DNA from: Maribacter polysaccharolyticus
Lineage (GTDB): Bacteria; Bacteroidota; Bacteroidia; Flavobacteriales; Flavobacteriaceae
Length of the DNA: 64,000 nt
Direction: 5' to 3'
Assembly: GCF_028882255.1 (NCBI RefSeq)
Contig: NZ_JARBUY010000002.1
Coordinates: 446,342 to 510,341, forward strand
This document shows positions 13,729 to 50,026 of the stretch, one piece after another. Both the position numbers and the translations under genes were made by a program. The notes under the pieces are model-generated. The model searched no databases. It had not been told where the DNA came from and saw nothing but the letters and a program-made list of their open reading frames with translations. Position 1 is the first letter of the stretch; every line of letters begins with the position of its first letter.

Positions 13729-15861
13729 ATGAGTATGAAAGTGATTTTTAAATGGGTTGTGTTTGGCCTTGTCGGCAGTATCCTAAGTTGCCAGGGGGAA
13801 AGGGCCCTGCCCGATGGGAGTGAAACGCCGAGTGACAAGGTAAATGTATTTTTGGGAACTTCGGGTGATCATGGACAGCTGTCCCCTTCGGCGGCATCAC
13901 CTTTCAATATGATTTCGATAGGGCCGGTGACCCACCCACAAACCCATACGGGTTATGAACACTATGCCAAAGAATTTTTGGGTTTTGTACATACCCATAT
14001 GGAAGGGGTAGGCTGTCTCGGGGGCGGAGGAAATATCCTCGTTAAACCTTTGGGTGAAGCGGGATTGGAAACCAAACTCCATAAAAAAAATGAAAAAGGC
14101 CGTCCCGGATATTATGGGGTGTCCTTTGAAAACGGCATTAAGGCCGAAATGGCGGTCGCCCATAATTATGGCGTTCATAAATACGCTTTTCCCCATAAAG
14201 ACAAAAGCCTGTTCGTCGCTATATCCCATGCCTTTGTAAACCGCTTTGTGGCCGAAGAACATGTTGTAAGGGGCAATACCGTTCAAGGGTGGGTAGATAC
14301 CAAGACCGTATGTGACAGGGGGCAGTACCGGCTCTATTTTTATATGGCATTCTCCAATGCGGACACGATTGAGCGTATTGGGGAACATACCCTTAGGGTA
14401 CACGGTGCCGATGCCGGGGAAATGACCCTGCGTATTGGGTTTTCATCCATCAGCGAAGCCTTCGCTAAAAAAAGGGTGATGGATAATGAAGGATTCGAAA
14501 CTACACGGGAAAATACTGGGGCACAATGGGATGCTGCTTTGGGAAGGGTCGTCGTTTCCGGCGAAAAAGACCGGGAATCCCTATTTTATTCGTTGTTGTA
14601 CCGGGGGCTTCAGGCTCCCTTCTTGGTATCCGAACCCGATGGGAGTTTTAAGGCGGTCGATGGTTCGGTACAATACTCCGAAACCGCTATCTACAATGGT
14701 TGGGCCATTTGGGATAATTACAGGGAGCAACTGCCTTTGTTGTCTTTGATCTATCCCGATACCTATGGCGACATCTCCCGGTCCATTGCCCAAATGTATC
14801 GTTTTGGGAAGAAGGATTGGGCTACCATGAACGAACCTTCGAATACGGTCAGGACCGAGCATGCCTTGATCGTACTCTTGGATGCGTATAAGAAGGGCCA
14901 TCGACTTCCGTTGGCCACCTTAAAGGATGCTTTGGCCAAGGAAGCCGAGCGATTGGATTTTGCCGCCCCCGATAAGGCGCTCGAATCTTCCTATGACCTA
15001 TGGGCCCTTTCAGAACTGATGCTTGCCATGGGGGATACGACCAAAGCCAACGAATTCCTAATGAAAGCAATGGATTATAAGACCTTTTGGAAAAAGGATT
15101 TTAAGGAGTTGGATTTGCCCGATGTGGACCAAATGGGGGCCAGGGGATTGTATCAGGGGACCCTTTGGCAGTATCGCTGGTTTGTACCCTTCGATATCGA
15201 GGGACTTAAGGAATTGGTCGGAGGGGAAGAAACTTTCGTGGCACAATTGGATGAATTTTTTGCCGAGTTCAACTACAATCACGCCAATCAGCCCGATCTT
15301 CAGGTTCCCGGACTTTACAATGCCACACAAGAACCTTGGAAATCCCAGAAATTGTTCAGGAATATCATGCTCGATACGGTGGTGCAGTTTTATTTCAACA
15401 ATAACAGTAAAGGGGTAGACCCTTATATCGGACGCATCTACCAGAATCGGCCCAAGGCCTATCTGCGTACCATGGATGACGATATGGGTACCCTCTCGTC
15501 TTGGTTCGTTTTACGGGCCATGGGGCTTTCCCCGGTCAATGTGGGCGAGCCGGTATATTATGTGACGGCGCCGATATTTCAAAATGTGGGTTTGCATTGG
15601 CCTTCAGGGCGGTCCTTTAACATAACAGTGTCCAATTACCATAAGGATAATTACTATATCAAATCGGTTCGTTTGAACGGAAAGACTTTGGAACGGAATT
15701 GGCTTACCCATGAAGAGATCATGGCCGGGGGCGAGCTCCTTCTGGAAACCGATAGTGTCCCCCATAAAAAATGGGGAACCAGCGACCCCTATATTTCCAA
15801 AATCGATTCCGTTGGCCCAGGCCTTCGGGAAAACCCGGTGAATACCGTAAAAACAAAGTAA
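13729..15861 (+). CDS. GH92-family glycosidase lipoprotein with Gln at the general-acid position
   Basis: A 710-residue predicted exo-alpha-mannosidase-family lipoprotein with lipobox ILSC. GH92 enzymes are Ca2+-dependent inverting glycosidases. Family blocks include VNVFLGTSGDHGQLSPSAASPF near the N-terminus, HTHMEGVGCLGGG, NGWAIWDNYREQLPLLSLIYP, and DDDMGTLSSWFVLRAMGL, which corresponds to the conserved GN[DE]DxGxxSAW base motif. Where most members have NEP with Glu as the acid, this protein has HANQPD with Gln at residue 521. A GH92 mannose-1-phospho-6-mannose hydrolase is known to carry the same change, so a substrate with a good leaving group such as phosphate is possible (inference). 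It starts at the codon after the DUF218 stop and is followed by a strong terminator. Confidence 0.92.
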   Translation: MSMKVIFKWVVFGLVGSILSCQGERALPDGSETPSDKVNVFLGTSGDHGQLSPSAASPFNMISIGPVTHPQTHTGYEHYAKEFLGFVHTHMEGVGCLGGGGNILVKPLGEAGLETKLHKKNEKGRPGYYGVSFENGIKAEMAVAHNYGVHKYAFPHKDKSLFVAISHAFVNRFVAEEHVVRGNTVQGWVDTKTVCDRGQYRLYFYMAFSNADTIERIGEHTLRVHGADAGEMTLRIGFSSISEAFAKKRVMDNEGFETTRENTGAQWDAALGRVVVSGEKDRESLFYSLLYRGLQAPFLVSEPDGSFKAVDGSVQYSETAIYNGWAIWDNYREQLPLLSLIYPDTYGDISRSIAQMYRFGKKDWATMNEPSNTVRTEHALIVLLDAYKKGHRLPLATLKDALAKEAERLDFAAPDKALESSYDLWALSELMLAMGDTTKANEFLMKAMDYKTFWKKDFKELDLPDVDQMGARGLYQGTLWQYRWFVPFDIEGLKELVGGEETFVAQLDEFFAEFNYNHANQPDLQVPGLYNATQEPWKSQKLFRNIMLDTVVQFYFNNNSKGVDPYIGRIYQNRPKAYLRTMDDDMGTLSSWFVLRAMGLSPVNVGEPVYYVTAPIFQNVGLHWPSGRSFNITVSNYHKDNYYIKSVRLNGKTLERNWLTHEEIMAGGELLLETDSVPHKKWGTSDPYISKIDSVGPGLRENPVNTVKTK

Positions 15862-15899
15862 AAAGACGAGTGTTCGATAATTTGGTTTAGCTTGTAAAG

Positions 15900-15927
15900 G
15901 GCGCGGCTTTTTAGCTGCGCCTTTTTT
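15900..15927 (+). terminator. Rho-independent terminator closing the first PUL
   Basis: A nine-pair stem with one G-T pair (GGCGCGGCT at 15900-15908, AGCTGCGCC at 15913-15921), a four-T loop and a run of six Ts. It lies 38 bases after the GH92 stop and ends the FecIR-SusCD-DUF218-GH92 block. Confidence 0.85.
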
Positions 15928-16065
15928 ATTTCTCCGGGTTGGACAAAGCTGCAGGGGGAATTACTTTCTTTTGGCGGGGCTTCCCAATTTTGGCACGTTA
16001 TCCTCCAGGGCAGCCCTAGGTATTACTTGTTATAAATAGTATATTGCCCTTTTAAAGCCAAACCA

Positions 16066-17871
16066 ATGAAGTTCCTCTTTCCCCTCTTTCTGTTGAGTAA
16101 TGTATTATGCGCACAGACCAACCGTTACGAAATCTCCTTTGACAATGCCGTACACCACGAAGCGGTGGTACGCGGTACATTTCCCGACCTTAAAAACGAT
16201 ACCGTTGCCTTTCGGATGAGTCGCTCTTCCCCGGGTAGGTATGCCTTGCACGAATTCGCCAAGAACGTATATGGGTTTACCGCGACCGATAGTAAGGGCA
16301 AGGATTTGAAGGTCTTGCGTCCAGATCCGTACCAATGGCAGGTGGTAGGACACGATGGCACTATTGCTATTCGTTATACCCTTTTTGCCAATAGGGGTGG
16401 GGGTACGTATTCCCAGGTGGATGAATCCCATGCCCATTTGAACATCCCCGCGACCTTTATGTATGCCTCTTCCTTGAAAGACCGGAAAATAGAGGTCGAT
16501 TTTAAGGTGCGAAAGGATTTGAATTGGAAGGTGGCTACCCAATTGCCTTTGGTTTCCGGGACCACCTATTGGGCCCCAGATCTGTATTATTTTATGGATA
16601 GCCCTACCGAAATCAGTAACTTTTCGGTTCGGGAATTCGAGGTGGAAGACCACGGGAAAAAACAAAACGTACGCTTTGTACTCCACCACAACGGTACCGA
16701 GGAGGAATTGGATGCCTATTTCGAAAAGGTGAAGAAGGTCGTACTTGCCGAGCGGGAAGTCTATGGAGAATTGCCCGCTTTCGATTATGGCACCTACACG
16801 TTTTTGGCCTGTTATATCCCCAATGCCTCGGGCGATGGCATGGAACACAGGAACTCCACCATCGTAACGAGTACCCGTAGCTTGGCCAACGGTGGGGCAG
16901 AACGGAATATCGGGACGGTGTCCCATGAGTTTTTCCATGCGTGGAACGTAGAGCGCATACGCCCGAAAGGGTTGGAGCCTTTTGATTTTGAAAAAGCCAA
17001 TATGAGCGGTGCCCTGTGGTTTGCCGAAGGGTTCACCAGTTATTATACCAGTCTCAACCTGTGTAGGGCAGGCCTTATTTCACCTGAGGCCTATGTCGAA
17101 GGCATTACGGGCACGTTTAACTATGTTTGGAACTCCCCGGCACGCCGATTCTTCAATCCGATCGAGATGAGTTATCAGGCGCCCTTCGTAGATGCGGCTA
17201 CATCGGTAGATCCGGTGAACCGGGAAAATACGTTTATCTCCTATTATTCCTACGGAAGTGTGTTGGGCCTTGCGCTGGACCTATCGCTACGGGAGGAAAA
17301 ATTGAACCTCGACGATTTTATGAAATTCGTTTGGAACCGATTTGGGACATCGGAGACCCCCTATACGTTAAACAACCTTCAACAAGCGTTGGCCGACTAT
17401 GCGGGTAGCGATTTTGCCGATACGTTCTTTGGCCAATACATCCATAAGAGTGGCATGCCCGATTACCATACGCTTTTGAACGCGGTGGGGGTTACCCTTA
17501 AACAAGATCCCACAGTGCCTTATTTCGGGGCCTCGGTGGCATTGAACGGGGACGGCCATGGGGAGGTCAGCTCCAACCCCAAAATGGGTACGCCCGCCTA
17601 TGAGGCCGGACTGGACAAAGGGAATGAGATCACCGCTATCAACGGACAGGGCTTTCCCGACGGACAACGATTCAGTGCCTATATTCAAGGACTGAAAGTG
17701 GGCGATACCCTAAAAATCGTTTTTAACCGGTACGGCGTGCAAAAGGAGACCAGTGTCGTATTGAAGTCCGACCCCAGCTACAGCCTTTTCCTTTCGGAAA
17801 AAGAAGGGGCAAAGGTTTCTAAAAAGCAGTTGCAGCGAAGAAACGAATGGCTTAAAACCGAAGGGGAGTAA
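16066..17871 (+). CDS. M61-family metallopeptidase with C-terminal PDZ domain
   Basis: A 601-residue exported zinc aminopeptidase-like protein of the M61 (glycyl aminopeptidase) family. A signal peptide is at residues 1-17 (MKFLFPLFLLSNVLCAQ). An N-terminal beta domain is followed by the catalytic domain, with HEFFH at residues 287-291 and the third zinc ligand in ALWFAEGFTSYY about 30 residues later. A PDZ-like domain is at about 500-575 (MGTPAYEAGLDKGNEITAINGQ). It probably trims peptides in the periplasm or at the surface. It stands alone after the PUL terminator, with no functional link to neighbours visible. Confidence 0.93.
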   Translation: MKFLFPLFLLSNVLCAQTNRYEISFDNAVHHEAVVRGTFPDLKNDTVAFRMSRSSPGRYALHEFAKNVYGFTATDSKGKDLKVLRPDPYQWQVVGHDGTIAIRYTLFANRGGGTYSQVDESHAHLNIPATFMYASSLKDRKIEVDFKVRKDLNWKVATQLPLVSGTTYWAPDLYYFMDSPTEISNFSVREFEVEDHGKKQNVRFVLHHNGTEEELDAYFEKVKKVVLAEREVYGELPAFDYGTYTFLACYIPNASGDGMEHRNSTIVTSTRSLANGGAERNIGTVSHEFFHAWNVERIRPKGLEPFDFEKANMSGALWFAEGFTSYYTSLNLCRAGLISPEAYVEGITGTFNYVWNSPARRFFNPIEMSYQAPFVDAATSVDPVNRENTFISYYSYGSVLGLALDLSLREEKLNLDDFMKFVWNRFGTSETPYTLNNLQQALADYAGSDFADTFFGQYIHKSGMPDYHTLLNAVGVTLKQDPTVPYFGASVALNGDGHGEVSSNPKMGTPAYEAGLDKGNEITAINGQGFPDGQRFSAYIQGLKVGDTLKIVFNRYGVQKETSVVLKSDPSYSLFLSEKEGAKVSKKQLQRRNEWLKTEGE

Positions 17872-17954
17872 CTTTATTCAAAACCATTACTCCCCAAACG
17901 TAAAGCTTGGGTCGTATTCAACACGGTTGCCCCTGCTAATGCAGACACCAAGAA

Positions 17955-18725
17955 CTACATATTGTAGACACCCCCATTGATGTCCAATGTAGCACCGGTA
18001 ATAAAACCATCGTATTCGGAGGCCAGATATACCACCGCCCGGGCTACGTCAGCGGCGTTACCTGCCCGTTGTATTGGAATGCCCGCGGTTGTTTCGGCAG
18101 CGGATTCTTTTGTGGTATGGGTATTATGAAATGAAGTCCCAAGGATAAGTCCAGGAGCGACGGCATTTACCCGTATGCCTTGAGGACCCAATTCTGAGGA
18201 CAGCGCTCTTGTAAATGTTAAAATGGCCCCTTTGCTTGTCGAATAGGCCAACGACCCTGGGTGTCCCCCTTTACGCCCCGCCAATGATGCGAGATTAACG
18301 ATACTGCTGTTATCGTTTTTTGCTAGGTAAGGAGATGCTGCCCGAGTCACGAACATCATGGAGGTAAGGTTAATGTCCATTACTTTCTGCCAAAATGTGG
18401 CCTCCATTTCGCTCAGCATTCTACGGGCAACAAGGGAACCCGCATTGTTGATCAATATGTCCAAGCCCCCAAACGCTTCCACGGTCTTTTCGACCAATGC
18501 ATTGGCATCGGCCTCTTTGGTTAAATCCCCACTTATGGTAACCGCTTTTTGTCCTTTGCTTGTCGCGTATTCCTTTAATTGGTTGGCGGTATCGGCGCTG
18601 GAAAAATAGTGTATGGCCACATTGGCACCGCTATCAATGAAGTGCCTGGTGATCGATTCACCAATTCCTTGGGCGCCAGCGGTGATCAGAACGTTCTTTC
18701 CGGTTAATTTATTCTGGTTTTTCAT
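17955..18725 (-). CDS. Short-chain dehydrogenase/reductase (SDR)
   Basis: A 256-residue classical SDR. The cofactor motif is VLITAGAQGIGESITRHF (a TGxxxGIG variant with Ala in place of the second residue). NNAG is present at about residue 91, the catalytic Tyr-Lys in YSTSKGA, and VAPGLILG after the active site. The C-terminal YDGFITGATLDINGGVYNM is typical. Substrate unknown; NAD(P)-dependent alcohol or sugar oxidoreduction is expected from the family. A GGAAGG Shine-Dalgarno-like sequence lies just before the ATG, unusual for this genome. No operon partner is evident. Confidence 0.9.
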   Translation of the reverse strand: MKNQNKLTGKNVLITAGAQGIGESITRHFIDSGANVAIHYFSSADTANQLKEYATSKGQKAVTISGDLTKEADANALVEKTVEAFGGLDILINNAGSLVARRMLSEMEATFWQKVMDINLTSMMFVTRAASPYLAKNDNSSIVNLASLAGRKGGHPGSLAYSTSKGAILTFTRALSSELGPQGIRVNAVAPGLILGTSFHNTHTTKESAAETTAGIPIQRAGNAADVARAVVYLASEYDGFITGATLDINGGVYNM

Positions 18726-18914
18726 ATCCTTCCTGTTTTAATCGTTTTGATGATCGTGTAAATTACAAAATATTAATTCGCGCTACGTTATTTTAAAAGT
18801 ATTCGATACGAACCTTGGCAATATAAGGGATAAAAATGCAACGGTGAATTATTATATTGCTGTTTGTGGCACCACCCACCTTTTTGATATGGGAATTAAA
18901 GACTTGTACTGCGG

Positions 18915-19409: not shown

Positions 19410-19411
19410 GA

Positions 19412-19918: not shown

Positions 19919-20211
19919 TGGCGTCTCTGTTTTTGATTAGTGCGAACTATTTAAATAGATGGTGTATGGCATTGTAGAACATGCTGTGATTAAGCCGTTA
20001 CATCGTAGTATAAAGATACTCATTTTCGGCTGTAGCACCATGCCCTTGGTGCATACAAATGGGGTGTTTTTACGATACTGTAGTGGATGAAAGAGCGAAG
20101 GATATGGGTGGTTAATAAGGGCGTTTGTTTTGAAAACCGCTATGTAATCTATTTAGAACCATGATGGCACAAGCGGGACGCTTGCGCCAGCGGGGGTGTT
20201 TTTTTATTTCC
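19919..20211. other. Intergenic stretch with REP-like copy and small hairpin
   Basis: No gene was found. It holds a six-pair hairpin (GCACCA 20035-20040 with TGGTGC 20047-20052) and the left REP-like palindrome at 20166-20196. Base composition drops toward AT here, marking the edge of the islet. Confidence 0.6.
20166..20196 (+). repeat. REP-like palindromic repeat, copy 1
   Basis: A 31-base unit beginning GGCACAAGCG and ending GCCAGCGGGGG, with an internal imperfect palindrome (AAGCG and CGCTT around three bases). It matches copy 3 at 21324-21354 in 30 of 31 positions and in the same orientation. It sits just downstream of the HNH stop codon. Confidence 0.85.
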
Positions 20212-20982
20212 CTAACCTAAAAATCTATTTTCATTATGGAATTTTAAAAATTCACTGTCAGGTAAAAATTTTGAGGGCAAAAAAATATCTTTATTGTCAT
20301 ATTGGAAAAAGTATTTCTCGAGAGCATCCGATTTTTTTTGTTTCAATAAAGTATTTGATACTTTGATTTTATAATTGGGTGTTATTGTAATTAAACCACG
20401 TTCAAATGCTTTATCGTGTAGGGCATTGATTGCAATTCCGTTTCTGGGATTTAATCTGTTTTTCTCGTCAGTACTCCAAGGTTTTATATGTCCGGCGATT
20501 AATAGTTCGCTTTGGTTTAAACCAGTAATGCAGCAGGTGTTGTTATAGGACGCTAAAATAGAATTACGAAAAAATGCTTGATTAACTCTTACTTTAACTA
20601 TTTGTTCCCTTGTTTTTCCATCGGGAAGATCATCTAAATCAATATTGTTGAGTTCTTCAATTGATGTATTTTCAAATTTTGATAAAAGTTTCTCGCTTTC
20701 AAAAGGCAATTCCTCCCAGTTATTGTAAAATTCATTCCAAATAACCTTATCCAATTTACTTGTATTGGAGGCACCTTTAATGCCCCTTGCTTGTAAACTT
20801 GGGTCAAGGCTAGCGAAATTACCTAATTTAAAAGCTACAGAGCTTGGAGTTCTTCCTATTAACCCTGCTAAATGTATAACTTGCGGATTTAACCTATGTA
20901 ATTTTCCAAATGGTAGTTTGCAATAAAGGTTTATTGCTAAAATCAATTCATCTCTAGTCCAAAGTTTTTGACCTTTTTTCAT
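20212..20982 (-). CDS. HNH endonuclease (predicted restriction-type nuclease)
   Basis: A 256-residue protein with a C-terminal HNH nuclease domain: CCITGLNQSELLIAGHIKPW (about residues 170-189) then NPRNGIAINALHDKAFERG (about 198-216), which supply the His-Asn-His metal site. The N-terminal 100 residues (WTRDELILAINLYCKLPFGKLHRLNPQVIHLAGLIGRTPSSVAFKLGNF) look like a DNA-recognition module seen in many solitary predicted restriction HNH enzymes. It is AT-rich relative to the flanking genes and lies between two direct REP-like copies. A methylase and a ParB-like protein are encoded upstream on the same strand, so a defence role is plausible but unproven. Confidence 0.88.
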   Translation of the reverse strand: MKKGQKLWTRDELILAINLYCKLPFGKLHRLNPQVIHLAGLIGRTPSSVAFKLGNFASLDPSLQARGIKGASNTSKLDKVIWNEFYNNWEELPFESEKLLSKFENTSIEELNNIDLDDLPDGKTREQIVKVRVNQAFFRNSILASYNNTCCITGLNQSELLIAGHIKPWSTDEKNRLNPRNGIAINALHDKAFERGLITITPNYKIKVSNTLLKQKKSDALEKYFFQYDNKDIFLPSKFLPDSEFLKFHNENRFLG

Positions 20983-21064
20983 TCAATAGCTTTTGTAATT
21001 TCTATTGTTTGTCGTTTGCAGATTTTTTAAAGCTAGTTCATAACGGTTAATATAACAATCATAG

Positions 21065-21094
21065 CTCCGCTAGTGTGAGCGTCAAGCTCGTACC
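21065..21094 (-). repeat. REP-like palindromic repeat, diverged copy 2 (inverted)
   Basis: Compared with the reverse complement of copies 1 and 3, 22 of 30 positions agree, including the core GAGCGTCAAGCTC. Most differences are transitions, as expected for an old, decaying copy. It forms a head-to-head pair with copy 3 about 230 bases away. Confidence 0.65.
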
Positions 21095-21323
21095 TTTCCT
21101 GTTCTTATTATGGCTGCCACTTCCTTCAAAATTACAATAGGCCGAAGCATACAATCGTTGACTATTCTTAAAATTATATTTTCTTGTACTACTGTACTTT
21201 CAATCAATTGGCGCTGCTACAAAACCTTTTTTCTACCGAGTTATTGAAATTGTATTTTATGCTCATTTCTAATTTTTACTTTTCAATTATTTAGGCCATA
21301 TTAAAATCCTTTTTACGCTTACA

Positions 21324-21354
21324 GGCACAAGCGTGACGCTTGCGCCAGCGGGGG
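21324..21354 (+). repeat. REP-like palindromic repeat, copy 3
   Basis: Identical to copy 1 except T for G at the 11th base. The palindromic core AAGCGTGACGCTT is perfect apart from the central three bases. It lies between the methylase and HNH genes. Confidence 0.85.
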
Positions 21355-21409
21355 GATGCTTCAATATAGCCGATTAAGGGTGGCGTGAGTTAGTAGGACC
21401 TTCATGTTT

Positions 21410-22291
21410 TTATTCTATAATTTGAACATTCTTTAGCTTCAATTTGGATTGATCAAATTTTAATTGGTCGGCAAAGACTAAAATTTCATTACCTACACGG
21501 TTTGAGGCTGATTGGGAAAGTCTGTAGCGTAATTTCTTTTGTTTCCCATAAAGATTTATAATGAAGTCATTATCATCGTATGATACTAACCATTTATGGT
21601 TTATTTTCTCCACCTGCTGAGCAAGCTTTTTATGGTCTTTCTTCTTGAAATAGTTCATGTACAAATCAGCACCCTTATGAACGTAAGGTGGGTCTAAGTA
21701 GATAAATGTATTTAGTTTTTTTTGATTTAATTGACGAATAAAATTTAAGCCATCATGATTTGTAAGGGAAATGCGGTGTTTAAACTTAGAAATTCTTTCA
21801 ATCCGTTTTATCAAATCCGTTTTATTAAATCTTGCTGTAATTTTATACTTTCCTTTTTGCTCTAAACCACCAATTGCTCCACCTTTAATTACACCTGAAA
21901 TATTTGTTCTATTAAGAAAAAAGACTGCCTGACCTAATTCAAATTGGCTAAACTCCTTTGGTTTTTTTTGTACTGATTTGTAATAGTTCCAATTGTCTAT
22001 ATCTACTTGAACATCTTCTACCCAATCACAAAATCGTTGATTGGATTCTAAAATAGATTTCCAAAAAGAATAAATCGAATAATCAAAGTCATTAATGTGG
22101 ATATGATTTACATATTCGTTGAATAATAGTTTTAAGGCAAGTCCTGAGCCACCGGCATATGGTTCAGCATAATCAACACCAAGTAGTCCATTTTCATAAA
22201 AAAGATTTGAAATAAAAGGGAAAATACAGGCTTTGCCACCTGGATATCTAAGAGGTGATTCGAATTGGCTATGTCTTTCGCTATCTTCCAT
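21410..22291 (-). CDS. D12-class N6-adenine DNA methyltransferase (Dam-like)
   Basis: A 293-residue methylase transferring a methyl group from S-adenosylmethionine to adenine in DNA. LRYPGGKA (residues 14-21) and EPYAGGSG (43-50, motif I) form the cofactor site. FLNRTNISGVIKGG is at about 125-138, and the catalytic motif IV DPPY is at 200-203. The length is close to the usual 270-300. The start overlaps the end of the ParB-like gene by 11 bases, so the two are coupled. It is AT-rich compared with flanking metabolic genes, consistent with transfer. The recognition site cannot be told; no dedicated restriction gene is fused or overlapping. Confidence 0.9.
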   Translation of the reverse strand: MEDSERHSQFESPLRYPGGKACIFPFISNLFYENGLLGVDYAEPYAGGSGLALKLLFNEYVNHIHINDFDYSIYSFWKSILESNQRFCDWVEDVQVDIDNWNYYKSVQKKPKEFSQFELGQAVFFLNRTNISGVIKGGAIGGLEQKGKYKITARFNKTDLIKRIERISKFKHRISLTNHDGLNFIRQLNQKKLNTFIYLDPPYVHKGADLYMNYFKKKDHKKLAQQVEKINHKWLVSYDDNDFIINLYGKQKKLRYRLSQSASNRVGNEILVFADQLKFDQSKLKLKNVQIIE

Positions 22292-23510
22292 GTGTAATTG
22301 TCAAAATTTCACCAAGTATAATTGATATTGCTATTGTTTGGTCAAGGTTATTACTAGCTTGATAATTGTGCGCACCAATATGAAGAAGCTGTGTTAATGA
22401 GCCTTCGGTGACATTCTGTGTGGAAAGAGTGGTTTTGGCATCTTTATCTAAATTTTTCTTCGCATTCTTATAATTCTTTTTTAGATATTTGTCCAAAGGC
22501 AATTGATTATCAGTAGCTGCAGTTTCACCTAGTAAACGCAAAGACATTCTAACAAGACTTGGGAAATATTGGCTAAAAGTATCTTTTTTTTGCTGATAAA
22601 AGCCATATAAATCTACAATGTCACGGTAAAGATCACTTACTTGTCCCGGTTTGAGGTATAACTTACCATTAAATATTTCTGGTTCCCTTTTCTTAGTTCT
22701 AGGTGCTTGTTTTTTCTTAAGAGGTGTTATTACTCCTGTGGCATTAATATGAATCTTAGTAAGTGGTTTTTTCTTATTAGTTTCAATCAAACTTCTCGAT
22801 GATTTATCAAGAACTTCAATAACCTTTCCACGATTTTTTCGAGTATGAATTACTTTAGCAGCAACTTTACTAGAAATGTCATCGAATATGGTTTTAGCTT
22901 CGGATTTCGAGTGTTTACTTTCAAGGTCGTCTTGATTAAACTCGAACCCCATTTCTTTAAGTTTTTGATTTGTAAATATTTCTTCTTTGACGAATCTTTG
23001 ATTTAGGTGTGGGTTGTTGGATATTATACCGGTTGCATCTTCAATTTTTAAAAATGTGCTTTTCGGTTCATTCATATGTTTATGTAAAAAAATATCTCTA
23101 TCTAAAGGAGACCAAGTACCTGAGTTGCCATGTTTTCTAAAAACATTTTTTATGGCAATCTCCTTGTCACATACATTACATGGAATTATTTTAGGGATAT
23201 GAGGTAATTTTGTTTTGTCAAACTCTGGAAGCTTTACAAGGTCATGTTTTAGTTTAGCTAATATCATTCTTCTATTACCATCATAAACGACAGGTTTATT
23301 GCCATAATAAACTACCGTTGGAAGTTCACTGAAATCATAAAATTCTCTCATTTCTTTGGCTAATTTTAAAAGATTCCATTTGTCGTGGTCATCTTTCCAT
23401 GCTTTGTCAGTAATATCTTGGTCGTTGCTATTAGGGTCAATTGGGTCTCTTGGATTTTCGGTCCATAAAACCAAGTCTTCAATTTTTATTTTTTCTATTT
23501 TTTGACTCAT
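22281..23510 (-). CDS. ParB/Srx-fold N-terminal domain protein of unknown function
   Basis: A 409-residue protein starting with a ParB-like domain: KIKIEDLVLWTENPRDP, then LPTVVYYGNKPVVYDGNRRMILAKL (about residues 63-87). DGNRR corresponds to the ParB arginine-rich nucleotide-binding box. A CNVC pair (about 111-114) is followed by a ParB HTH-like stretch (LDRDIFLHKHMNEPKSTFLKIEDATG). The C-terminal half (from about residue 230) is Lys-rich and unrecognised. It is the first gene of a two-gene unit with the adenine methylase. ParB-fold proteins next to methylases occur in mobile elements and restriction or defence loci. Function is not assigned here. Confidence 0.75.
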   Translation of the reverse strand: MSQKIEKIKIEDLVLWTENPRDPIDPNSNDQDITDKAWKDDHDKWNLLKLAKEMREFYDFSELPTVVYYGNKPVVYDGNRRMILAKLKHDLVKLPEFDKTKLPHIPKIIPCNVCDKEIAIKNVFRKHGNSGTWSPLDRDIFLHKHMNEPKSTFLKIEDATGIISNNPHLNQRFVKEEIFTNQKLKEMGFEFNQDDLESKHSKSEAKTIFDDISSKVAAKVIHTRKNRGKVIEVLDKSSRSLIETNKKKPLTKIHINATGVITPLKKKQAPRTKKREPEIFNGKLYLKPGQVSDLYRDIVDLYGFYQQKKDTFSQYFPSLVRMSLRLLGETAATDNQLPLDKYLKKNYKNAKKNLDKDAKTTLSTQNVTEGSLTQLLHIGAHNYQASNNLDQTIAISIILGEILTITHGR

Positions 23511-29690: not shown

Positions 29691-29695
29691 GGTTT

Positions 29696-31517: not shown

Positions 31518-32612
31518 TTAGCTCGGTGGATAACACAGCAATAATTTGGAGCTGCTATCCGATTTTAAGGTGACACTTTCTATGGCGGCCGAGACAAAGA
31601 TCTCATCCCCTTGGGTATAGGTATATTCCTTGCCGTTGCAAAGCAATACCCCTTCCCCTTGGTATACCACGATCACATAGAAGCTTCCGTTGGCCTTTAC
31701 CGTATAGGTACCATCCAAGTACAGTTCGCTCAGGCCGAAACAGTCGGTATGGGTTTTGTTGAAAATGGTGTTGAAGGTAAACTCCTCGGAAGACTCCACG
31801 AGTTGTGGCGCGACCTTCCATTTGGCCAAAGCCTCTTCGAGGGTATAGTCGTCGTAGTGAAAGCAATCGAGCATTGTTTTTTCACCTACTCCTTGATGGA
31901 TCAGTTCATCGGTAATCCGGAGTCCGGCTGGCGTGGTTTTCTCTACCCGCATGGTATAATCGGTGGGTTCCTGGACTTCCATCAAAAAACATCCGCTTCC
32001 GATCGCATGGGGTACCCCTCCATAGATCATAAAGGCATCGCCCGGTTTTACCTCTATTTTATGCAGGCTGTTCAACATGCCTTCTATATCTTGATCGTAG
32101 AAATAGCCTTCCCACTGTTCCCGGGTAACCCCTTTCTTGAATCCCATATAAATGACACTTTTCTCACCATCGATTTCGCGGGTGTTCAATACGTACCAAG
32201 ATTCGGTTTTTCCGAAGGATGAATTTAAAATTTCCTTGGCATAGCGTTTATCGGGATGCACTTGGATCGTTAAGCGTTCTTGGGAATCGAGCATCTTGAT
32301 CAACACTCCGGTAGTACCGAATTTTTCGGCCAGCTTTTCCCCTAGGAACAATTTTTTGTTCGAATCGATCAGTTCTTTTAGCGGTAATAGGCCATTAGGG
32401 GTTTCAACCTTGGTGAGTCCTTCGTCCACGGGTCGGTTCTTGCCTCTGGCGGTAACGGTCGACATGATCCATTCTTCAGGAAAACTGTTATCGACCTCCG
32501 GAGTGTCCTTTTTCCAGTGATCGATCAAGGCACCACCTGAATAGGTGCGCCAAACCCTATTGGAAACTTGTTTTAGGGGTATATGTGCAAATTGCTGTAA
32601 ATCCTTCTCCAT
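31518..32612 (-). CDS. manA: Mannose-6-phosphate isomerase, class I
   Basis: A 364-residue cytosolic zinc enzyme interconverting mannose 6-phosphate and fructose 6-phosphate. Type I hallmarks are LTIQVHPDKRYAKEIL (zinc ligands Gln and His), SFGKTESWYVLNTREI (Glu ligand region) and PGDAFMIYGGVPHAIGSGCFLMEVQEPTDYTMRV (His ligand and cupin core). The C-terminal cupin half ends in a TYTQGDEIFVSAAIESVTLK pattern. It starts two bases after the stop of the NRAMP-like transporter gene, so both are one operon. It could feed mannose released by the GH92 enzymes in this window into glycolysis. Confidence 0.92.
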   Translation of the reverse strand: MEKDLQQFAHIPLKQVSNRVWRTYSGGALIDHWKKDTPEVDNSFPEEWIMSTVTARGKNRPVDEGLTKVETPNGLLPLKELIDSNKKLFLGEKLAEKFGTTGVLIKMLDSQERLTIQVHPDKRYAKEILNSSFGKTESWYVLNTREIDGEKSVIYMGFKKGVTREQWEGYFYDQDIEGMLNSLHKIEVKPGDAFMIYGGVPHAIGSGCFLMEVQEPTDYTMRVEKTTPAGLRITDELIHQGVGEKTMLDCFHYDDYTLEEALAKWKVAPQLVESSEEFTFNTIFNKTHTDCFGLSELYLDGTYTVKANGSFYVIVVYQGEGVLLCNGKEYTYTQGDEIFVSAAIESVTLKSDSSSKLLLCYPPS

Positions 32613-32614
32613 TT

Positions 32615-33877
32615 TTATTGTATTAATTCCATTACTCCTTTAATTCCCGATACCGAGGTGAAAATAGCGAACAATAGGATCAGTGCCAAAATAATATTGG
32701 ATCCCAAGCCTGCTTTGTGTTCCCCCATAAGATCCTTACGGTTGACCAGATAGAAGATACTTATCACGGTAAGGGGCAATATAATCGCATTCAAGGCCTG
32801 TGAGATGATCATGACGAATACGGGCTGTGCATTGAATATGGGAACGACCAAGCCCAATAAGGAGATCAAAAAGACGATAAGCCTGTATTTCGGCAAGCTC
32901 ATATCGCGTTCAGATTCGTTATAGTCGCAAATGAGCCAAGGAAGCATCAAGATATTCGGAAATTGGGAGGACACTCCAGCCGAAACGATCCCTACGGCAA
33001 ATATGGAGGTGGCAAAACTACCGGCCAAGGGCTGCAAAAGCTCGATCATTTGTGAGGCTTTGGATAGCTGTATCCCCTCCACGTGCAACGTTCCCGCGGC
33101 AGCGGCCATTATGGAGCCACTGATGATGAACATCAGGGTTACCGAAAAAAGGGCGTCGTTCCGTTGTTTTTTTAAATCGGCCAATTCCCAACCCGCTTCT
33201 TTTACCAAGGTGGTCCTGATAATGAAAAGACCCGAAAAAACCGTTGTTCCGATCATAGAGGCAATAATCAAAAATGGACTTTCATTACCTCTTAGCGTTT
33301 CGGGTACATTGGGGATAAGTCCTTTTAAGATTTCCAAAGGAGGGGGCATCATGATGAAAAAATTGAGAATAAAGCTGGCGGACATGATGGCCACGATGAC
33401 CGCCAAGGCCCTTTCGAAAAATTCGGTTTTCCCGTTCCAGAAGATGAAATAGACCATGGTTATAAAGAACAGGGCAAAGTAGAGCGGTGAAATACCACCA
33501 TCCACTATGGTTGTTGACCATTCGTAGCAGATATCCGCCACGATACCCATAACCCCCATGACACTACCACAAACCCCTACGGTAAGGGCGATGATAAAGA
33601 AAATACCCACGGCAGGGTGTATATGTTTTTTAAAGGCCTGAAGTGCTGTTTCCCCGGTCACCAAGGTAAATCGACCGTATAGGTTGATCATGAAAAATGT
33701 GGTAAGGCAAGAGGCAAGGATCGTCCAGAGCAATGTCATGCCATAGTCGGCACCTGCCTTTGCCATTGAGGTAACGCTTCCGGTCCCAATGTTTAATCCA
33801 AGTAAGAAAATTCCGGGTAAAAATAGTGCGATGTAGGCGGAGAGTTTAGATCGCCAGGTTTTTTTTTCAGATTGCAT
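32615..33877 (-). CDS. NRAMP-related membrane transporter lacking the canonical metal motifs
   Basis: A 420-residue protein with about 11 membrane helices and NRAMP-like order (FLPGIFLLGLNIGTGSVTSMAKAGADYGMTLLW as TM1, LYGRFTLVTGETALQAFKK, and TTVFSGLFIIRTTLVKEAGWE as TM6). True NRAMP Mn/Fe carriers have DPGN in TM1 and a Met-Pro-His type motif in TM6. Here TM1 reads LNIGTGS and the TM6 methionine motif is absent, so the substrate may not be a transition metal. It is translationally close to the mannose-6-phosphate isomerase. A TATTTTTG -7 element (33893-33900, minus strand) lies 15 bases before the start. The NRAMP fold is likely; the substrate is open. Confidence 0.8.
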   Translation of the reverse strand: MQSEKKTWRSKLSAYIALFLPGIFLLGLNIGTGSVTSMAKAGADYGMTLLWTILASCLTTFFMINLYGRFTLVTGETALQAFKKHIHPAVGIFFIIALTVGVCGSVMGVMGIVADICYEWSTTIVDGGISPLYFALFFITMVYFIFWNGKTEFFERALAVIVAIMSASFILNFFIMMPPPLEILKGLIPNVPETLRGNESPFLIIASMIGTTVFSGLFIIRTTLVKEAGWELADLKKQRNDALFSVTLMFIISGSIMAAAAGTLHVEGIQLSKASQMIELLQPLAGSFATSIFAVGIVSAGVSSQFPNILMLPWLICDYNESERDMSLPKYRLIVFLISLLGLVVPIFNAQPVFVMIISQALNAIILPLTVISIFYLVNRKDLMGEHKAGLGSNIILALILLFAIFTSVSGIKGVMELIQ

Positions 33878-40314: not shown

Positions 40315-40351
40315 TTAATTTCTGCTTATTTTTGTAGCCTTTGATCATACA

Positions 40352-43129: not shown

Positions 43130-43289
43130 TGGTAGGTCGTTGTTGGTCTAAAAATGTTCGGTTTATAAGAAAAAGTGGAAATATTTATGATGTCGTAATT
43201 GCGGGGTAAGTTACTTAAATTTTAGAAATATCCTGTTAAATAAGGGTTAATAGGTAAGTGGATTCCAGATTGCAGAACCAACCATAAAT

Positions 43290-45539
43290 ATGAATAAATA
43301 CGTATTATATGCTTTTACTGCAGTAGCAGTTGTTATGTCTTGTACGGATCATAAAACCGATCGGTCACAGGCAAGGAACATAGTCGATTATGTAGATCCT
43401 TTTATTGGGACCGGTGGCCATGGGCATACGTATCCCGGAGCATCCTCGCCTTTTGGCCGTATGCAGCCAAGCCCGGATAATGGGACCACTGGGTGGGATT
43501 GGTGTTCGGGTTACCATATTACGGATTCCATAATATCCGGTTTTGCCCAATTGCATTTAAGCGGTACCGGGATCGGTGATTTGGCCGATGTGCTTTTGAT
43601 GCCGACCAATTCGGATATGGATCTCGGGCTTTTCGGGAAAAAAAGGGATTCCCTGCCCTATACCTCACACTTTTCCCATGAGGGAGAAGAAGCTTCACCG
43701 GGGTATTACAAAGTACATTTGAATGATCCCGATATTACCGTGGAGCTTACGGCGAATGATTATGTCGCGTATCATAGATATACCTATCAAAATGCGGTGA
43801 AACCTTCTTTTGTCGTCGATTTGGGATATGCGGTTAATTGGGACAAGCCCTTGGAAAGTAGTTTAAAGATGGAGGACAGCCGGCATATCGTCGGGTACCG
43901 TTTTAGTACAGGATGGGCCAAAAACCAAAAGGTGTTTTTTGCCATGGAAACCTCCCGCCCTATCGTTCAACAAAGGTTTATCGGTGATGCACCTACGGGC
44001 ATTGCCTCAACGGAAGTTCATGGGGTAAAAGCAGGGGGTCAGTTTTTCTTTAAAGGGGATACGGACAGTGTTGAAGTGAAAATTGCCGTGTCGTCGGTGA
44101 GTATTGAAAATGCCAAAGCGAACTTAAGCTCACAGGGTAACCCCGGTTTTGGGGAAATACGGGAAAAAACCCGAGGGGATTGGGGCGATCTCTTGTCCAA
44201 TATCACGGTAGAAACCCCAACGGATAGCTTAAAGACGATTTTTTATACGGCACTCTACCATGCCCAAGTGGCCCCGACCATGTTCAATGATCTCAACGGG
44301 GAATTTAGAATGCAGAACGATAGTATTGCCAAAACCGATTTTAAGATGTATTCGTCTTTATCGTTATGGGACATCTATCGTGCTGAAACCCCTTTGCTGA
44401 GTATCATCGATCCCAACCGATTGGACGATATGGTCAGATCTATGTTGGTCTATTATGACGAGAGCGGGGTTTTGCCGGTGTGGGTACTATCGGGTAATGA
44501 AACCGGAACAATGCCCGGATACCACTCGGTTTCCATAATTGCGGAAGCCATTATGAAAGGACATACTTCCTTTGATGTACAAAAGGCCTATACCGCCATG
44601 AAAGAGACCATGATGGGCGATGAACGGGGGTTGAAGGCCTATAAGGAATACGGGTATATTCCGTATGAAGTCATGGATCAGTCCGTCTCCATAAGTCTTG
44701 AGTATGCTTACAATGATTGGTGTGTGGCGCAGGTGGCCAAGAAATTGGGTTACGATGGGGACTACGCCTATTTTGATGACCGTTCAAAAGCATACCGGAA
44801 TTTTTTCGATGGCGGTTCGGGATTTTTAAGGGGTAAATCGAAGGACGGAAAGAATTTCCATGAACCTTTTGATCCAAAATCCTCTAACCATATCGAAGAT
44901 ACCGATTATACCGAAGGCAATGCATGGCAACATAGTTGGTATGTGTTGCATGATGTCGCCGGTTTGATGGAGCTACATGGGAAGATGGATTCTTTTGCCC
45001 TAATGGTGGAGCGACTTTTTACGGAAGATTCCGATCTGAGCGGCCACAATGTATCTCCCGATATATCCGGACTTATTGGTCAATATGCCCATGGGAACGA
45101 ACCGAGTCACCATATCGCCTATATGCTGAATAAGGCCGATGCCCCATGGCGTACCCAATATTGGGTTCGTAAAATAATGGATACCCAATACAGTACAAAA
45201 CCAGACGGATTGAGTGGTAATGAGGATTGTGGACAAATGTCCGCATGGTATATCATGAGTGCAATGGGTATTTATCCCATGAACCCTGCTTCAGGGGAAT
45301 ATGAAATCGGAAGTCCGATATTCGAAAAAACCACGATAAAGTTACCCGGCGGTAAAACCTTTGTGATTTCCGCACCCGACACCTCCCAAAAGAATATTTA
45401 TGTGCAATCGGTAAAACTGAACGGTGAACTTCTAGATAGAACCTACATCATGCATGGGGATATTGTTTCCGGAGGCACCTTGGAATTTGAAATGGGACCC
45501 ACCCCGAATAAAGAATGGGGAGTAAAAAAACACAACTAA
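43290..45539 (+). CDS. GH92-family alpha-mannosidase lipoprotein (canonical acid)
   Basis: A 749-residue outer-membrane or periplasmic lipoprotein (lipobox VVMSC). It carries typical GH92 blocks: VDYVDPFIGTGGHGHTYPGASSPFGRMQPSPD, LHLSGTGIGDLADVLLMP, SSLSLWDIYRAETPLLSIIDP, and SGNEDCGQMSAWYIMSAMGIYPM (D646 in the base motif). The general acid is present as E604 in HGNEPSHHIAYM. It should release terminal alpha-mannose from glycans in a Ca2+-dependent inverting reaction. It begins the second PUL, and the sodium:solute symporter gene starts 10 bases after its stop. Confidence 0.95.
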   Translation: MNKYVLYAFTAVAVVMSCTDHKTDRSQARNIVDYVDPFIGTGGHGHTYPGASSPFGRMQPSPDNGTTGWDWCSGYHITDSIISGFAQLHLSGTGIGDLADVLLMPTNSDMDLGLFGKKRDSLPYTSHFSHEGEEASPGYYKVHLNDPDITVELTANDYVAYHRYTYQNAVKPSFVVDLGYAVNWDKPLESSLKMEDSRHIVGYRFSTGWAKNQKVFFAMETSRPIVQQRFIGDAPTGIASTEVHGVKAGGQFFFKGDTDSVEVKIAVSSVSIENAKANLSSQGNPGFGEIREKTRGDWGDLLSNITVETPTDSLKTIFYTALYHAQVAPTMFNDLNGEFRMQNDSIAKTDFKMYSSLSLWDIYRAETPLLSIIDPNRLDDMVRSMLVYYDESGVLPVWVLSGNETGTMPGYHSVSIIAEAIMKGHTSFDVQKAYTAMKETMMGDERGLKAYKEYGYIPYEVMDQSVSISLEYAYNDWCVAQVAKKLGYDGDYAYFDDRSKAYRNFFDGGSGFLRGKSKDGKNFHEPFDPKSSNHIEDTDYTEGNAWQHSWYVLHDVAGLMELHGKMDSFALMVERLFTEDSDLSGHNVSPDISGLIGQYAHGNEPSHHIAYMLNKADAPWRTQYWVRKIMDTQYSTKPDGLSGNEDCGQMSAWYIMSAMGIYPMNPASGEYEIGSPIFEKTTIKLPGGKTFVISAPDTSQKNIYVQSVKLNGELLDRTYIMHGDIVSGGTLEFEMGPTPNKEWGVKKHN

Positions 45540-45549
45540 ATAACCCTAT

Positions 45550-47427: not shown

Positions 47428-47683
47428 CGGAGTCAAATGAAATCGTGGAGATTGGATATATATGAGGATTCCATATACTGCGTTACATGCCATCGAAGGG
47501 GAAAAGAAGGCCTTTAAAGCTGTGACGGTAGATAGCGTTGCCACAAAATTATTTATACGTAGTTGGAAACCATTGAATTCAAGAAGAAACAGGGTTTATA
47601 AAAATGGTGTTGTTATGAATCGGTATTTTTGGTCCAAGAAAATGAAACTTCAAGAAAGAAATAAGTTAGCGCACATTATGGTA

Positions 47684-50026
47684 ATGAATAGACAATTGAA
47701 AATCAGTATTTCCTATATGGTGGCCCTATTTTTTTTAGTGGCCTGTAGTGAGCATAAATCCCAGGAAGGTGTACATGCCGATAAAGTGGAGCAAGATCTC
47801 TTGGGGTACGTTAATCCGTTAATGGGTACCGATTCTGACTTTAGTCTATCGAACGGAAACACCTATCCGGCAATCGCCACACCTTGGGGAATGAATTTTT
47901 GGACCCCCATGACCTCAAAAATGGGCGACGGGTGGACGTACAAATACCACGACAAAAAAATACGAGGGATTAAGCAAACCCATCAACCCAGTCCGTGGAT
48001 CAATGATTATGCGGCATTTTCCTTGATGGCGGTTACGGGCGATCTAAAATATCAGGAAGATGAACGGGAGTCATATTTTTCGCATAAGGCCGAGACCGTT
48101 AGACCCGATTATTACAGTGTGTATTTGGCAGATTATGACGTAGTCGCTGAGGTTTCCCCGACAGAAAGGGCGGCACACTTTAAATTTACCTTTCCCGAGG
48201 ATCGATCGTATATATTGTTGGACGGTTTTTTTAAAGGTTCAATGGTCCGGATAATTCCGGAAGAACGAAAGATAATCGGGTATTGCAGAAATAACAGCGG
48301 GGGTGTTCCCGAGAATTTCCATAATTACTTCGTGGCTGAATTCGATACGGATTTCGAATTGACGCATACCTGGGGCGATAATTGGGAATTGAAAGGGAAT
48401 TCAAAAGAAAATAAAGGCGACCATGTTGGGGCCATCGTTGGTTTTAATACTAAAAAAGGTCAGGAAATACATGTAAAAGTCGCCTCTTCCTTTATTAGTC
48501 CGGAGCAGGCGCAATTGAATTTGGACAGGGAAATCGGCGATGATACGTTCGAGGCCACCAGGGAAAAAGCCACCGCAGCTTGGGAAAGGGAATTAGTGAA
48601 AATCCAGATCGAAGATGATAATATAGATCATATAAGGACTTTTTATTCCTGTCTTTATCGCGTGTTGCTGTTTCCAAGAAAAATGTATGAGTTGGATGAG
48701 TCCGATGAAATAGTGCATTATAGTCCGTATAATGGCAAGGTCTTACCCGGATATATGTTCACTGATAACGGATTTTGGGACACCTTTAGAGCGGTTTTCC
48801 CGTTTTTCAATTTAATGTATCCTGAGCTTAATGGCCATATCATGGAAGGTTTGGCAAATACGTATAAAGAGTCGGGTTGGCTGCCTGAATGGGCCAGTCC
48901 GGGGCATCGGGATTGTATGATCGGCTCTAACTCATCACCCATTATTGCCGATGCCTTTTTAAAGGGGATTGCTATGGGAGATACCGAAGTTTTGCTTGAG
49001 GCCATGGTCAAGAACGCAACCACCTCGGAGAACAGGCCATTGTCCAATGGGAATGTGATCCACTCCGTAGGTAGGGAGGGATTGGAATATTATAATGAAT
49101 TGGGCTATGTGCCTTACGATGTGGGCATCAACGAAAATGCCGCCCGGACATTGGAATATGCCTATGCGGATTTCACTATTGGGCAAATGGCCGAAAAAAT
49201 GGGGAAAACCGAATTGGCCGATACGTTCTACAAACGTTCCATGAATTATAAAAACCTGTTTGATCCCACTACAAAATGGATGCGCGGTAAAAATAAGGAC
49301 GGAACTTTTCAAAGTCCATTCAATCCCTTGAAATGGGGGGATGCCTTTACCGAAGGAAACAGTATCCATTATACCTGGTCCGTTTTCCATGATGTAAATG
49401 GATTGATCGGATTGATGGGAGGAAAAAAAGAATTTGAAAATAAATTGGATGCCGTTTTTGATATGCCCCCTGATTTCGATGATTCCTATTACGGGTTTAC
49501 CATTCATGAAATACGGGAAATGCAGATCATGAACATGGGTAATTATGCGCATGGGAACCAACCCATCCAACACATGATTTATTTGTATAATTACGCCAAT
49601 GTCCCATATAAGGCTCAGGAAAAGATCAGGACCGTCTTGACCAAGTTGTATGCGCCCACGCCGGATGGTTATTGTGGCGATGAGGATAACGGGCAAACGT
49701 CTGCCTGGTATGTGTTCAGTTCCCTTGGTTTTTATCCGGTTACGCCCGGCGTGGATCAGTATGTCATAGGTAGTCCGTTATTTAAAAAAGCGAGTATTTC
49801 CTTGGAAAACGGCAATCGTTTTGAAATTACGGCCCCAGGGAACGGTAAGGAAAATTTTTATATACAATCGGCAAGATTGAACGGTGTGGATTACGATAAG
49901 TCTTTTTTAAAGTATGATGACATCGTCAAAGGGGGCACATTGCAGTTTACCATGGATAAAAAACCGAATACGGAATGGGCAAGTGGCGAAGATTCGGTAC
50001 CATACTCCTTAAGTAATCGAAAATAG
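47684..50026 (+). CDS. GH92-family glycosidase lipoprotein with Gln at the general-acid position
   Basis: A 780-residue lipoprotein (signal peptide MNRQLKISISYMVALFFLVAC). Family blocks include VNPLMGTDSDFSLSNGNTYPAIATPWGMNFWTPMT, KQTHQPSPWINDY, GFWDTFRAVFPFFNLMYPEL and CGDEDNGQTSAWYVFSSLGFYPV (base motif). At the acid position it has HGNQPIQHM, with Gln at residue 626, instead of Glu. It differs from the first Gln variant in surrounding sequence, so the change probably arose in a separate clade. The frame opens at 47462, but the upstream 74 residues do not look like coding sequence and the lipobox signal starts at 47684 (47678 is also possible). It follows the symporter gene. Confidence 0.9.
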   Translation: MNRQLKISISYMVALFFLVACSEHKSQEGVHADKVEQDLLGYVNPLMGTDSDFSLSNGNTYPAIATPWGMNFWTPMTSKMGDGWTYKYHDKKIRGIKQTHQPSPWINDYAAFSLMAVTGDLKYQEDERESYFSHKAETVRPDYYSVYLADYDVVAEVSPTERAAHFKFTFPEDRSYILLDGFFKGSMVRIIPEERKIIGYCRNNSGGVPENFHNYFVAEFDTDFELTHTWGDNWELKGNSKENKGDHVGAIVGFNTKKGQEIHVKVASSFISPEQAQLNLDREIGDDTFEATREKATAAWERELVKIQIEDDNIDHIRTFYSCLYRVLLFPRKMYELDESDEIVHYSPYNGKVLPGYMFTDNGFWDTFRAVFPFFNLMYPELNGHIMEGLANTYKESGWLPEWASPGHRDCMIGSNSSPIIADAFLKGIAMGDTEVLLEAMVKNATTSENRPLSNGNVIHSVGREGLEYYNELGYVPYDVGINENAARTLEYAYADFTIGQMAEKMGKTELADTFYKRSMNYKNLFDPTTKWMRGKNKDGTFQSPFNPLKWGDAFTEGNSIHYTWSVFHDVNGLIGLMGGKKEFENKLDAVFDMPPDFDDSYYGFTIHEIREMQIMNMGNYAHGNQPIQHMIYLYNYANVPYKAQEKIRTVLTKLYAPTPDGYCGDEDNGQTSAWYVFSSLGFYPVTPGVDQYVIGSPLFKKASISLENGNRFEITAPGNGKENFYIQSARLNGVDYDKSFLKYDDIVKGGTLQFTMDKKPNTEWASGEDSVPYSLSNRK

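Follow-up and report, generated by a model that had tools for sequence, protein, structure and literature searches.

We analyzed a window of 64,000 nucleotides from the flavobacterium Maribacter polysaccharolyticus (contig NZ_JARBUY010000002.1, positions 446,342 to 510,341 of the forward strand; its genome is G000 below), which encodes four proteins of glycoside hydrolase family 92 (GH92). We refer to these proteins as P0001 (13729-15861), P0002 (47684-50026), P0003 (43290-45539), and P0004 (50119-52359), and L-numbers denote loci or alignment rows of relatives of GH92 or DUF218 proteins. Our results revealed that P0001 has a glutamine at the position of the GH92 general acid and keeps the general base. 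On the basis of its sequence and its gene neighborhoods, P0001 is probably an acid-independent hydrolase of mannosyl-phosphodiesters, of the type of CcMan5 from Cellulosimicrobium cellulans, within a small polysaccharide utilization locus (PUL). Judged from sequence, it is one of a broad group of Bacteroidota GH92 proteins that lack the acid; this clade is coupled to a protein with a DUF218 domain. The parts of P0001 on which this reading turns are as follows.

13729 to 15861, + strand: GH92-Gln (P0001), 710 residues, without the general acid, CcMan5-like (Pfam, PDB match, 138-row alignment)
14845 to 14859, + strand: T373-V-R-T-E377, whose Arg375 and Glu377, both also in CcMan5, lie close to the boundary of subsites -1 and +1 (alignment)
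15154 to 15156, + strand: codon CAG of Gln476, the true acid column (Glu533 in Bt3990, Gln536 in CcMan5; alignment and published roles)
15289 to 15291, + strand: codon of Gln521, the residue first taken for the acid (alignment of relatives)
15472 to 15483, + strand: M582-D-D-D585, the general-base motif, intact (D583-D585 in 87 of 87 rows)

Where does the acid of GH92 sit? Passages of PMC5930347 and PMC10167667 describe inverting GH92 enzymes that work with a calcium-bound mannose, a base, and an acid. In the former, the acid is Glu535 in BT3130, Glu531 in BT3965, and Glu533 in Bt3990, and the base of BT3130 is Asp637; in the latter, Glu944 and Asp1058 of NnGH92 have Glu533, Asp642, and Asp644 as their equivalents in Bt3990. 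The base motif D-x-D stands at 623/625 of the Bt3990 PDB chain, an offset of 19 to the published numbers, which puts Glu533 at residue 514 of the chain, the Glu within FTEGN. The corresponding offset for BT3130 is 16, and both its acid and its base agree with the published numbers. Reading the acid column from an alignment of 138 GH92 rows, we found Gln476 in P0001, Glu557 in P0002, Glu542 in P0003, and Glu580 (counted from 50080) in P0004. The canonical acid Glu is thus missing from P0001 and present in the other three proteins.

A sequence-only reading of this window had placed the acid elsewhere. It had found the four GH92 proteins, and each indeed has both GH92 Pfam domains (PF17678 and PF07971, above the cutoff in all four); the start of P0004 at 50119 is in frame inside an open reading frame (ORF) at 50080-52359. 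The motifs ANQPD and GNQPI that it gave for the proteins at 13729 and 47684 are there, as is NEP with Glu in the other two (E604 in P0003; E625 counted from 50080, which is E612 counted from 50119, in P0004), and all four retain the base Asp, as it had said (column of Bt3990 Asp644). Its error was to take the NEP/NQP residue for the general acid. The published acids map instead to the Glu within xxEGN, and Bt3990 itself reads NQP (GNQPIQH, the Gln being residue 602 in published numbering), which rules out the NEP/NQP residue as the acid. Because Bt3990 is a characterized mannosidase, NQP is no sign of a missing acid. Among 87 otherwise similar relatives, 57 have Gln and 30 have Glu at the column of P0001 Gln521. 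The difference between the NQP and NEP copies is real, but a reading in which this residue is the acid and both NQP proteins lack it is practically untenable. Acid loss therefore holds for P0001, at Gln476, a residue that had gone unnamed, and is wrong for P0002; when aligned with characterized GH92 enzymes, P0002 has a different Glu at the acid position and P0001 does not. The picture of two such variants in separate PULs falls with Glu557, and a phosphodiester-linked mannose substrate, proposed for both proteins, continues to look plausible for P0001 alone. The correction matters for annotation, since assigning the acid by NEP/NQP would mislead. A further GH92 protein of the same genome (L007; G000:C16:73348-74862), the longest branch of our GH92 tree, has NQP together with Glu at the acid column and is another case in which NQP does not mark acid loss.

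By sequence, the best PDB match of P0001 is CcMan5 (PDB 2xsg, 4aq0). Gln476 aligns with Gln536 of CcMan5 within the stretch LYQGTLWQY, which is common to both proteins. The predicted structure of P0001 (mean predicted local distance difference test score [pLDDT], 83.8) also has CcMan5 as its best match (2xsg; template modeling score, 0.84; E = 1.4e-50), ahead of BT3130. According to a passage of PMC5930347, CcMan5 cleaves Man-PO4-Man linkages. The two proteins share VR-x-E, Tyr475, Met582, and the base Asp585 (P0001 numbers); they differ in that CcMan5 has NEI where P0001 has NQP, and their identity over the fold alignment is 26%. Bt3990 differs from P0001 in carrying the acid Glu and in lacking an Arg at the column of Arg375.

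We then asked how widespread this form is. We scanned genome contigs with a seven-sequence query alignment (P0001, four relatives with Gln, and two sisters of the Glu type) and obtained 262 relatives; in the best 80 of these 262, Gln stands at the acid column in 80 of 80 (L042 and L072 are one protein counted twice). With the seven query rows added, Gln is found in 85 of 87, the two exceptions being L044 and L045, the Glu-type sisters placed in the query. The base residues D583-D585 are kept in all 87. Seven further rows all have Gln with Arg375 (L211 is identical to an earlier row). The clade spans five families of Bacteroidota (Flavobacteriaceae, Sphingobacteriaceae, Hymenobacteraceae, Chitinophagaceae, and Prolixibacteraceae). 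Outside this phylum, Gln occurs in two Novosphingobium rows and one CcMan5-type Streptomyces row, and a Catenovulum row has Glu.

Residues beside the acid column set the Gln rows apart. Among 135 rows (the 138 minus 3 duplicates of window proteins), 89 have Gln with Arg375, 3 have Glu with Arg375, 43 have Glu without Arg375, and none has Gln without Arg375. In other words, all 89 Gln rows, among them CcMan5, have Arg375, versus 3 of 46 Glu rows. The rows with Arg375 also carry Glu377 (92/92, versus 0/43 of those without), Tyr475 (92/92 versus 1/43), and Met582 (92/92 versus 0/43), and CcMan5 has the equivalents of all four residues. In a quick unrooted tree of 80 rows, in which the Gln rows were thinned to one third and some joins run via long branches, the 43 rows without Arg375 are separated by a branch with a Shimodaira-Hasegawa-like approximate likelihood ratio test value (SH-aLRT) of 99 from CcMan5 and the P0001 clade, on whose side the three Glu rows with Arg375 also fall. 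On this side CcMan5 forms a deep branch with the Streptomyces row, apart from the P0001 clade. The Gln/Glu label needs 3 changes on the tree. These data suggest that LYQGT together with VR-x-E is, at the level of sequence, a sign of a missing acid in GH92. The three Glu rows (L044, L045, and L155) may help to distinguish loss of the acid from its recovery.

The gene for P0001 is the last of a run on the + strand in the order ECF sigma, FecR, SusC, SusD, DUF218, GH92-Gln.

5589 to 6113, + strand: extracytoplasmic function (ECF)-type sigma factor (Pfam sigma-70 regions 2 and 4)
6195 to 7187, + strand: FecR-like anti-sigma factor (Pfam)
7328 to 10738, + strand: SusC-like TonB-dependent transporter (TIGR04056; 61% and 62% identity in two relatives)
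10745 to 12421, + strand: SusD-like lipoprotein (Pfam; 72% and 71% identity in two relatives)
12484 to 13728, + strand: DUF218 protein directly upstream of GH92-Gln (PF02698, E = 1.6e-15)
16066 to 17871, + strand: M61 peptidase downstream of GH92-Gln (Pfam)

A SusC/SusD pair, a degradative enzyme, and a regulator, the elements by which we recognize a PUL, are all present at 5589-15861. Two relatives have the same gene run, with DUF218 proteins 42.7% and 44.5% identical and GH92 proteins 58% identical to those of the window. The M61 peptidase was rejected as a member; a phmmer search over 87 loci gave no relative of it in the other 86, so it is probably outside the unit. Upstream of the PUL, at 1876-4311, a GH94-type phosphorylase lies with a sugar symporter of the major facilitator superfamily; an NCBIfam scan gave no match there.

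Gene order around the Gln-type relatives often repeats that of the window. A DUF218 gene lies within six genes of GH92-Gln in 47 of 85 Gln loci, some of which are shortened by contig ends, and the exact order SusC-SusD-DUF218-GH92-Gln is seen in 29 of 85, preceded by sigma and FecR in 24 of them. The DUF218 ORF of the window opens at 12418, with the Met at 12484 the likelier start; by eye, its N terminus is signal-like. Its motif RHTTTN-x-RN is invariant in 32 of 32 aligned rows. The protein had no match in the PDB by sequence at E 1 and no model in an NCBIfam scan, and a fold search with its predicted model gave nothing at E 0.001 or better, the best match being a weak one to YdcF (3ca8, E = 1.3e-3). 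It shares its Pfam domain with SanA, ElyC, and YdcF of Escherichia coli, from which it differs by about 250 extra N-terminal residues, mostly helices in the model, with the signal-like start, and by its place in a sugar-uptake operon. Passages of PMC12176290 describe the DUF218 domain of SanA as periplasmic and in need of a Thr/His/Glu set; according to passages of PMC8609368, that of ElyC is also periplasmic, and ElyC affects the phosphoglyceride-linked enterobacterial common antigen (ECA), which has a glycan-phosphodiester-lipid bond. In Mucilaginibacter-type loci, a further protein of 292 residues (cluster 7; L127:3887-4765 and 12 relatives, in 13 loci) lies next to SusC, after DUF218. It had no Pfam or NCBIfam match and, by eye, is possibly a beta-propeller.

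The coupling of the two genes extends to whole genomes of the family. Among 149 genomes, GH92-Gln and the DUF218 protein occur in the same five and in none of the others, for which the chance if they were independent is about 1.7e-9 (kinship is ignored here and in all probabilities below). The five GH92-Gln proteins are 59 to 100% identical, and the acid motif was read in each of them. In two of the five genomes (G143 and G144), the genes are unlinked and far apart, and DUF218 ends a SusC-SusD operon that has no GH92 (in G143 with FecR and sigma as well). We also viewed five DUF218 loci from genomes without a GH92-Gln match. In 4 of them the gene adjoins a SusC/SusD pair (none is in view in L152); three of these 4 have cluster 7, and one of the three also has a GDPD protein.

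What else adjoins GH92-Gln? A same-strand phosphatase or phosphodiesterase lies directly beside it in 21 of 85 loci. It is a purple acid phosphatase in six Allomuricauda/Flagellimonas loci and one of Salegentibacter, an alkaline phosphatase in Flavivirga and Maribacter, a GDPD protein in 11 loci, and an Exo_endo_phos protein in one; Pfam searches with representatives of each kind confirmed the families. The same profiles found none within three genes in 40 controls, the loci of other GH92 genes from the same family draw (Fisher P = 1.8e-4), a contrast that is biased because the profiles were seeded mostly from Gln loci. A full Pfam scan of the 49 same-strand direct non-GH92 neighbors in the controls gave no phosphatase or phosphodiesterase among the 25 of 32 families listed. 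Six loci (L042, L062, L072, L073, L075, and L095) have GH92-Gln beside genes for DUF1080 (3-keto-disaccharide hydrolase) and Gfo/Idh/MocA proteins, with no DUF218, and GH92-Gln is thus also used in other kinds of loci.

Some Gln loci contain alpha-mannan enzymes: GH76 in L107, L117, and L209 and GH125 in L109, with further GH92 genes beside them. In this they resemble the alpha-mannan PULs of Bacteroidota, with GH76, GH92, and GH125, described in passages of PMC9213526 (for example, that of Salegentibacter Hel_I_6), a paper whose main text has no word starting with "phosph". The PUL of the window is unlike these, with no GH76 or GH125 within three genes of its GH92-Gln; in its genome, GH125 was not found and GH76 occurs once, on another contig. 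The alpha-mannan context does not discriminate, since a control locus (L199) also has GH76 and GH125.

These data can be brought together as follows. By analogy with its family, P0001 would be a secreted, calcium-dependent, inverting GH92 enzyme that has given up the acid (Glu to Gln476) and has kept the base Asp585 together with Asp583. It would release alpha-mannose from a leaving group that departs unprotonated, most likely a phosphodiester Man-alpha-1-P-X, as in CcMan5, the phosphodiester activity of which is reportedly due to its Gln536 (Tiels and coworkers, 2012); the acid would be dispensable because phosphate departs without protonation. Gln in place of Glu may avoid charge repulsion, and Arg375, near the subsite boundary, probably binds the phosphate. 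At the level of the locus, the ECF sigma/FecR pair would regulate the PUL, SusC/SusD would take up a mannosyl-phosphate glycan or glycolipid head group, and GH92-Gln would strip the mannose cap. A phosphoesterase (purple acid, alkaline, GDPD, or phospholipase C [PLC]-type in relatives, perhaps DUF218 here) would then handle the remaining phosphate; a phosphomonoester left after mannose removal would fit the adjoining phosphatases. We assume that the DUF218 protein may act on the same phosphate-linked glycan. A bolder version, which we put forward tentatively and regard as having about one chance in three of being correct, is a hitherto undescribed system for utilizing sugar-1-phosphate diesters. 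Its core would be the sigma/FecR-controlled SusC/SusD pair with a secreted DUF218 protein, to which an acid-free GH92, a phosphatase (purple acid or alkaline), a GDPD, or a PI-PLC would be added per substrate, and DUF218 itself would be an enzyme on glycan-phosphate linkages. Such an enzyme would also fit the control by ElyC of phosphoglyceride-linked ECA, and the DUF218 domain would get its first substrate class.

Several observations weigh against a phosphodiesterase role of P0001. The co-occurrence of GH92-Gln with DUF218 is only partial outside the family draw: in 395 genomes of the phylum, GH92-Gln was found in 5 and DUF218 in 8, with 3 shared (P = 5.4e-5), and in 199 genomes of one genus the numbers were 8, 6, and 5 (P = 1.3e-7); G000 was counted in both the family and the phylum draws. 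The three of the genus draw with GH92-Gln and without DUF218 are L209 (a GH76/GH92 locus), L210 (similar, with no GH76 in view), and L211 (a short contig). Our profiles found no phosphoesterase next to GH92-Gln in 64 of 85 loci. Kinship inflates the counts, and the six Allomuricauda/Flagellimonas loci and the 11 GDPD loci may be two events. In the window itself no phosphatase adjoins GH92-Gln, and the one Pur_ac_phosph_N protein of the genome is on another contig. At a distance of up to three genes, GH76 or GH125 was seen in 3 of the 85 Gln loci and in 1 of the 40 controls. The 80 relatives examined are those nearest to P0001. Three rows (L044, L045, and L155) have the Arg375/Glu377 signature and yet Glu at the acid column, so that Arg375 is not strictly tied to Gln. 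In the model, the ten-residue blocks within 361-380 and 461-480, which hold the Arg and acid motifs, have pLDDT values of 57 to 69.

One potential alternative concerns the leaving group. It could be the inositol-phosphate or glycerophosphate head group of a membrane lipid (mannosyl-phosphoinositol or mannose-phosphoglycerol) in place of a mannan phosphate, with a phosphate beside the scissile bond, or the leaving phosphate, replacing the acid. GDPD proteins in 13 of 87 loci are consistent with this, as are a PI-PLC-C1 protein directly after GH92-Gln in L213 and its relatives in L044 (a Glu-type sister locus), L099, and L104; DUF218 is absent from the neighborhood of the three Gln loci that have GH76 or GH125 at most three genes from GH92-Gln. 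However, a PLC relative was also found in one of 40 control stretches (L206), GH76 or GH125 together with further GH92 genes occurs in four loci, and CcMan5, the sole characterized relative, acts on Man-phospho-Man in the account of PMC5930347. We consider a lipid head group unlikely, although less so than the two explanations that follow.

The acid could instead have moved, with Glu377 (or His378) of VRxE protonating an ordinary alpha-mannoside, so that P0001 would be a normal mannosidase. Glu377 follows Arg375 without exception in our rows, and it lies four places past the column of Cys393 of Bt3990, a residue described as lying at the boundary in passages of PMC5930347. Since Glu377 is present in the three rows that retain the acid Glu, and in CcMan5, it is not simply a replacement acid, and we regard a moved acid as improbable. 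More improbable still is a noncatalytic mannose-binding protein. The missing acid would suit such a role, but a pseudoenzyme that only bound sugar could lose its base freely, and all 87 rows retain the base motif; Gln is also one base change from Glu, and yet it stands in 80 of 80 scanned loci (the best 80 of 262). A mannosyl-phosphodiesterase is the reading we prefer for P0001, as suggested by the Gln at the acid column, CcMan5 as best match, the Arg/Glu/Tyr/Met signature, and the phosphoesterases that adjoin 21 of 85 loci.

The other three GH92 proteins of the window keep the acid.

43290 to 45539, + strand: P0003, GH92; acid Glu542 (44913-44915); the NEP Glu604 is not the acid
47684 to 50026, + strand: P0002, putative ordinary Bt3990-type GH92; acid Glu557 (49352-49354), NQP Gln at 626
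50119 to 52359, + strand: P0004, GH92; acid Glu580 counted from 50080 (51817-51819); the NEP Glu612, counted from 50119, is not the acid

P0002 looks like an ordinary alpha-1,2-mannosidase of the Bt3990 type, and Glu557 at the acid column rules it out as an acid-loss variant. Bt3990 (PDB 2wvx) is its closest solved protein, at 1048 bits, and pairs with it in the GH92 tree. The alignment gives E, D, H, and E at the columns of the acid, the base, and the +1 residues His584/Glu585, so that P0002 and Bt3990 have NQP, the acid, the base, and His584/Glu585 in common. PMC5930347 describes His584 and Glu585 as the +1 subsite of Bt3990, an alpha-1,2 enzyme. Glu557, the closeness to Bt3990 with the same NQP, and the kept +1 His and Glu thus all argue for an ordinary enzyme.

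If our reading of P0001 is correct, acid-free GH92 would not be an oddity of one actinobacterium; it would be spread over five Bacteroidota families and Novosphingobium and would mark loci that feed on phosphate-linked mannose. The DUF218 domain gains a genetic partner and, with it, a testable substrate. A literature search that covered few subscription journals gave, among the papers listed, no described PUL for phosphate-linked mannose and nothing on acid-free GH92 or its glutamine, on DUF218 in polysaccharide utilization, or on phosphomannan with GH92; a PUL with DUF218 is apparently undescribed so far. For lysosomal enzymes, removing the cap from mannosyl-phosphate glycans also has applied interest.

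Two other regions of the window, both on the - strand, deserve mention. At 20212-23510 lie an HNH_2 endonuclease-like protein, a D12-class adenine methyltransferase, and a protein of 409 residues that had no Pfam or NCBIfam match; the cluster looks like a small restriction-modification module. At 31518-33877, a protein resembling class I mannose-6-phosphate isomerases, although divergent and below the NCBIfam cutoff, lies beside an Nramp-type transporter; it is noteworthy because mannose or mannose phosphate may be released by the locus.

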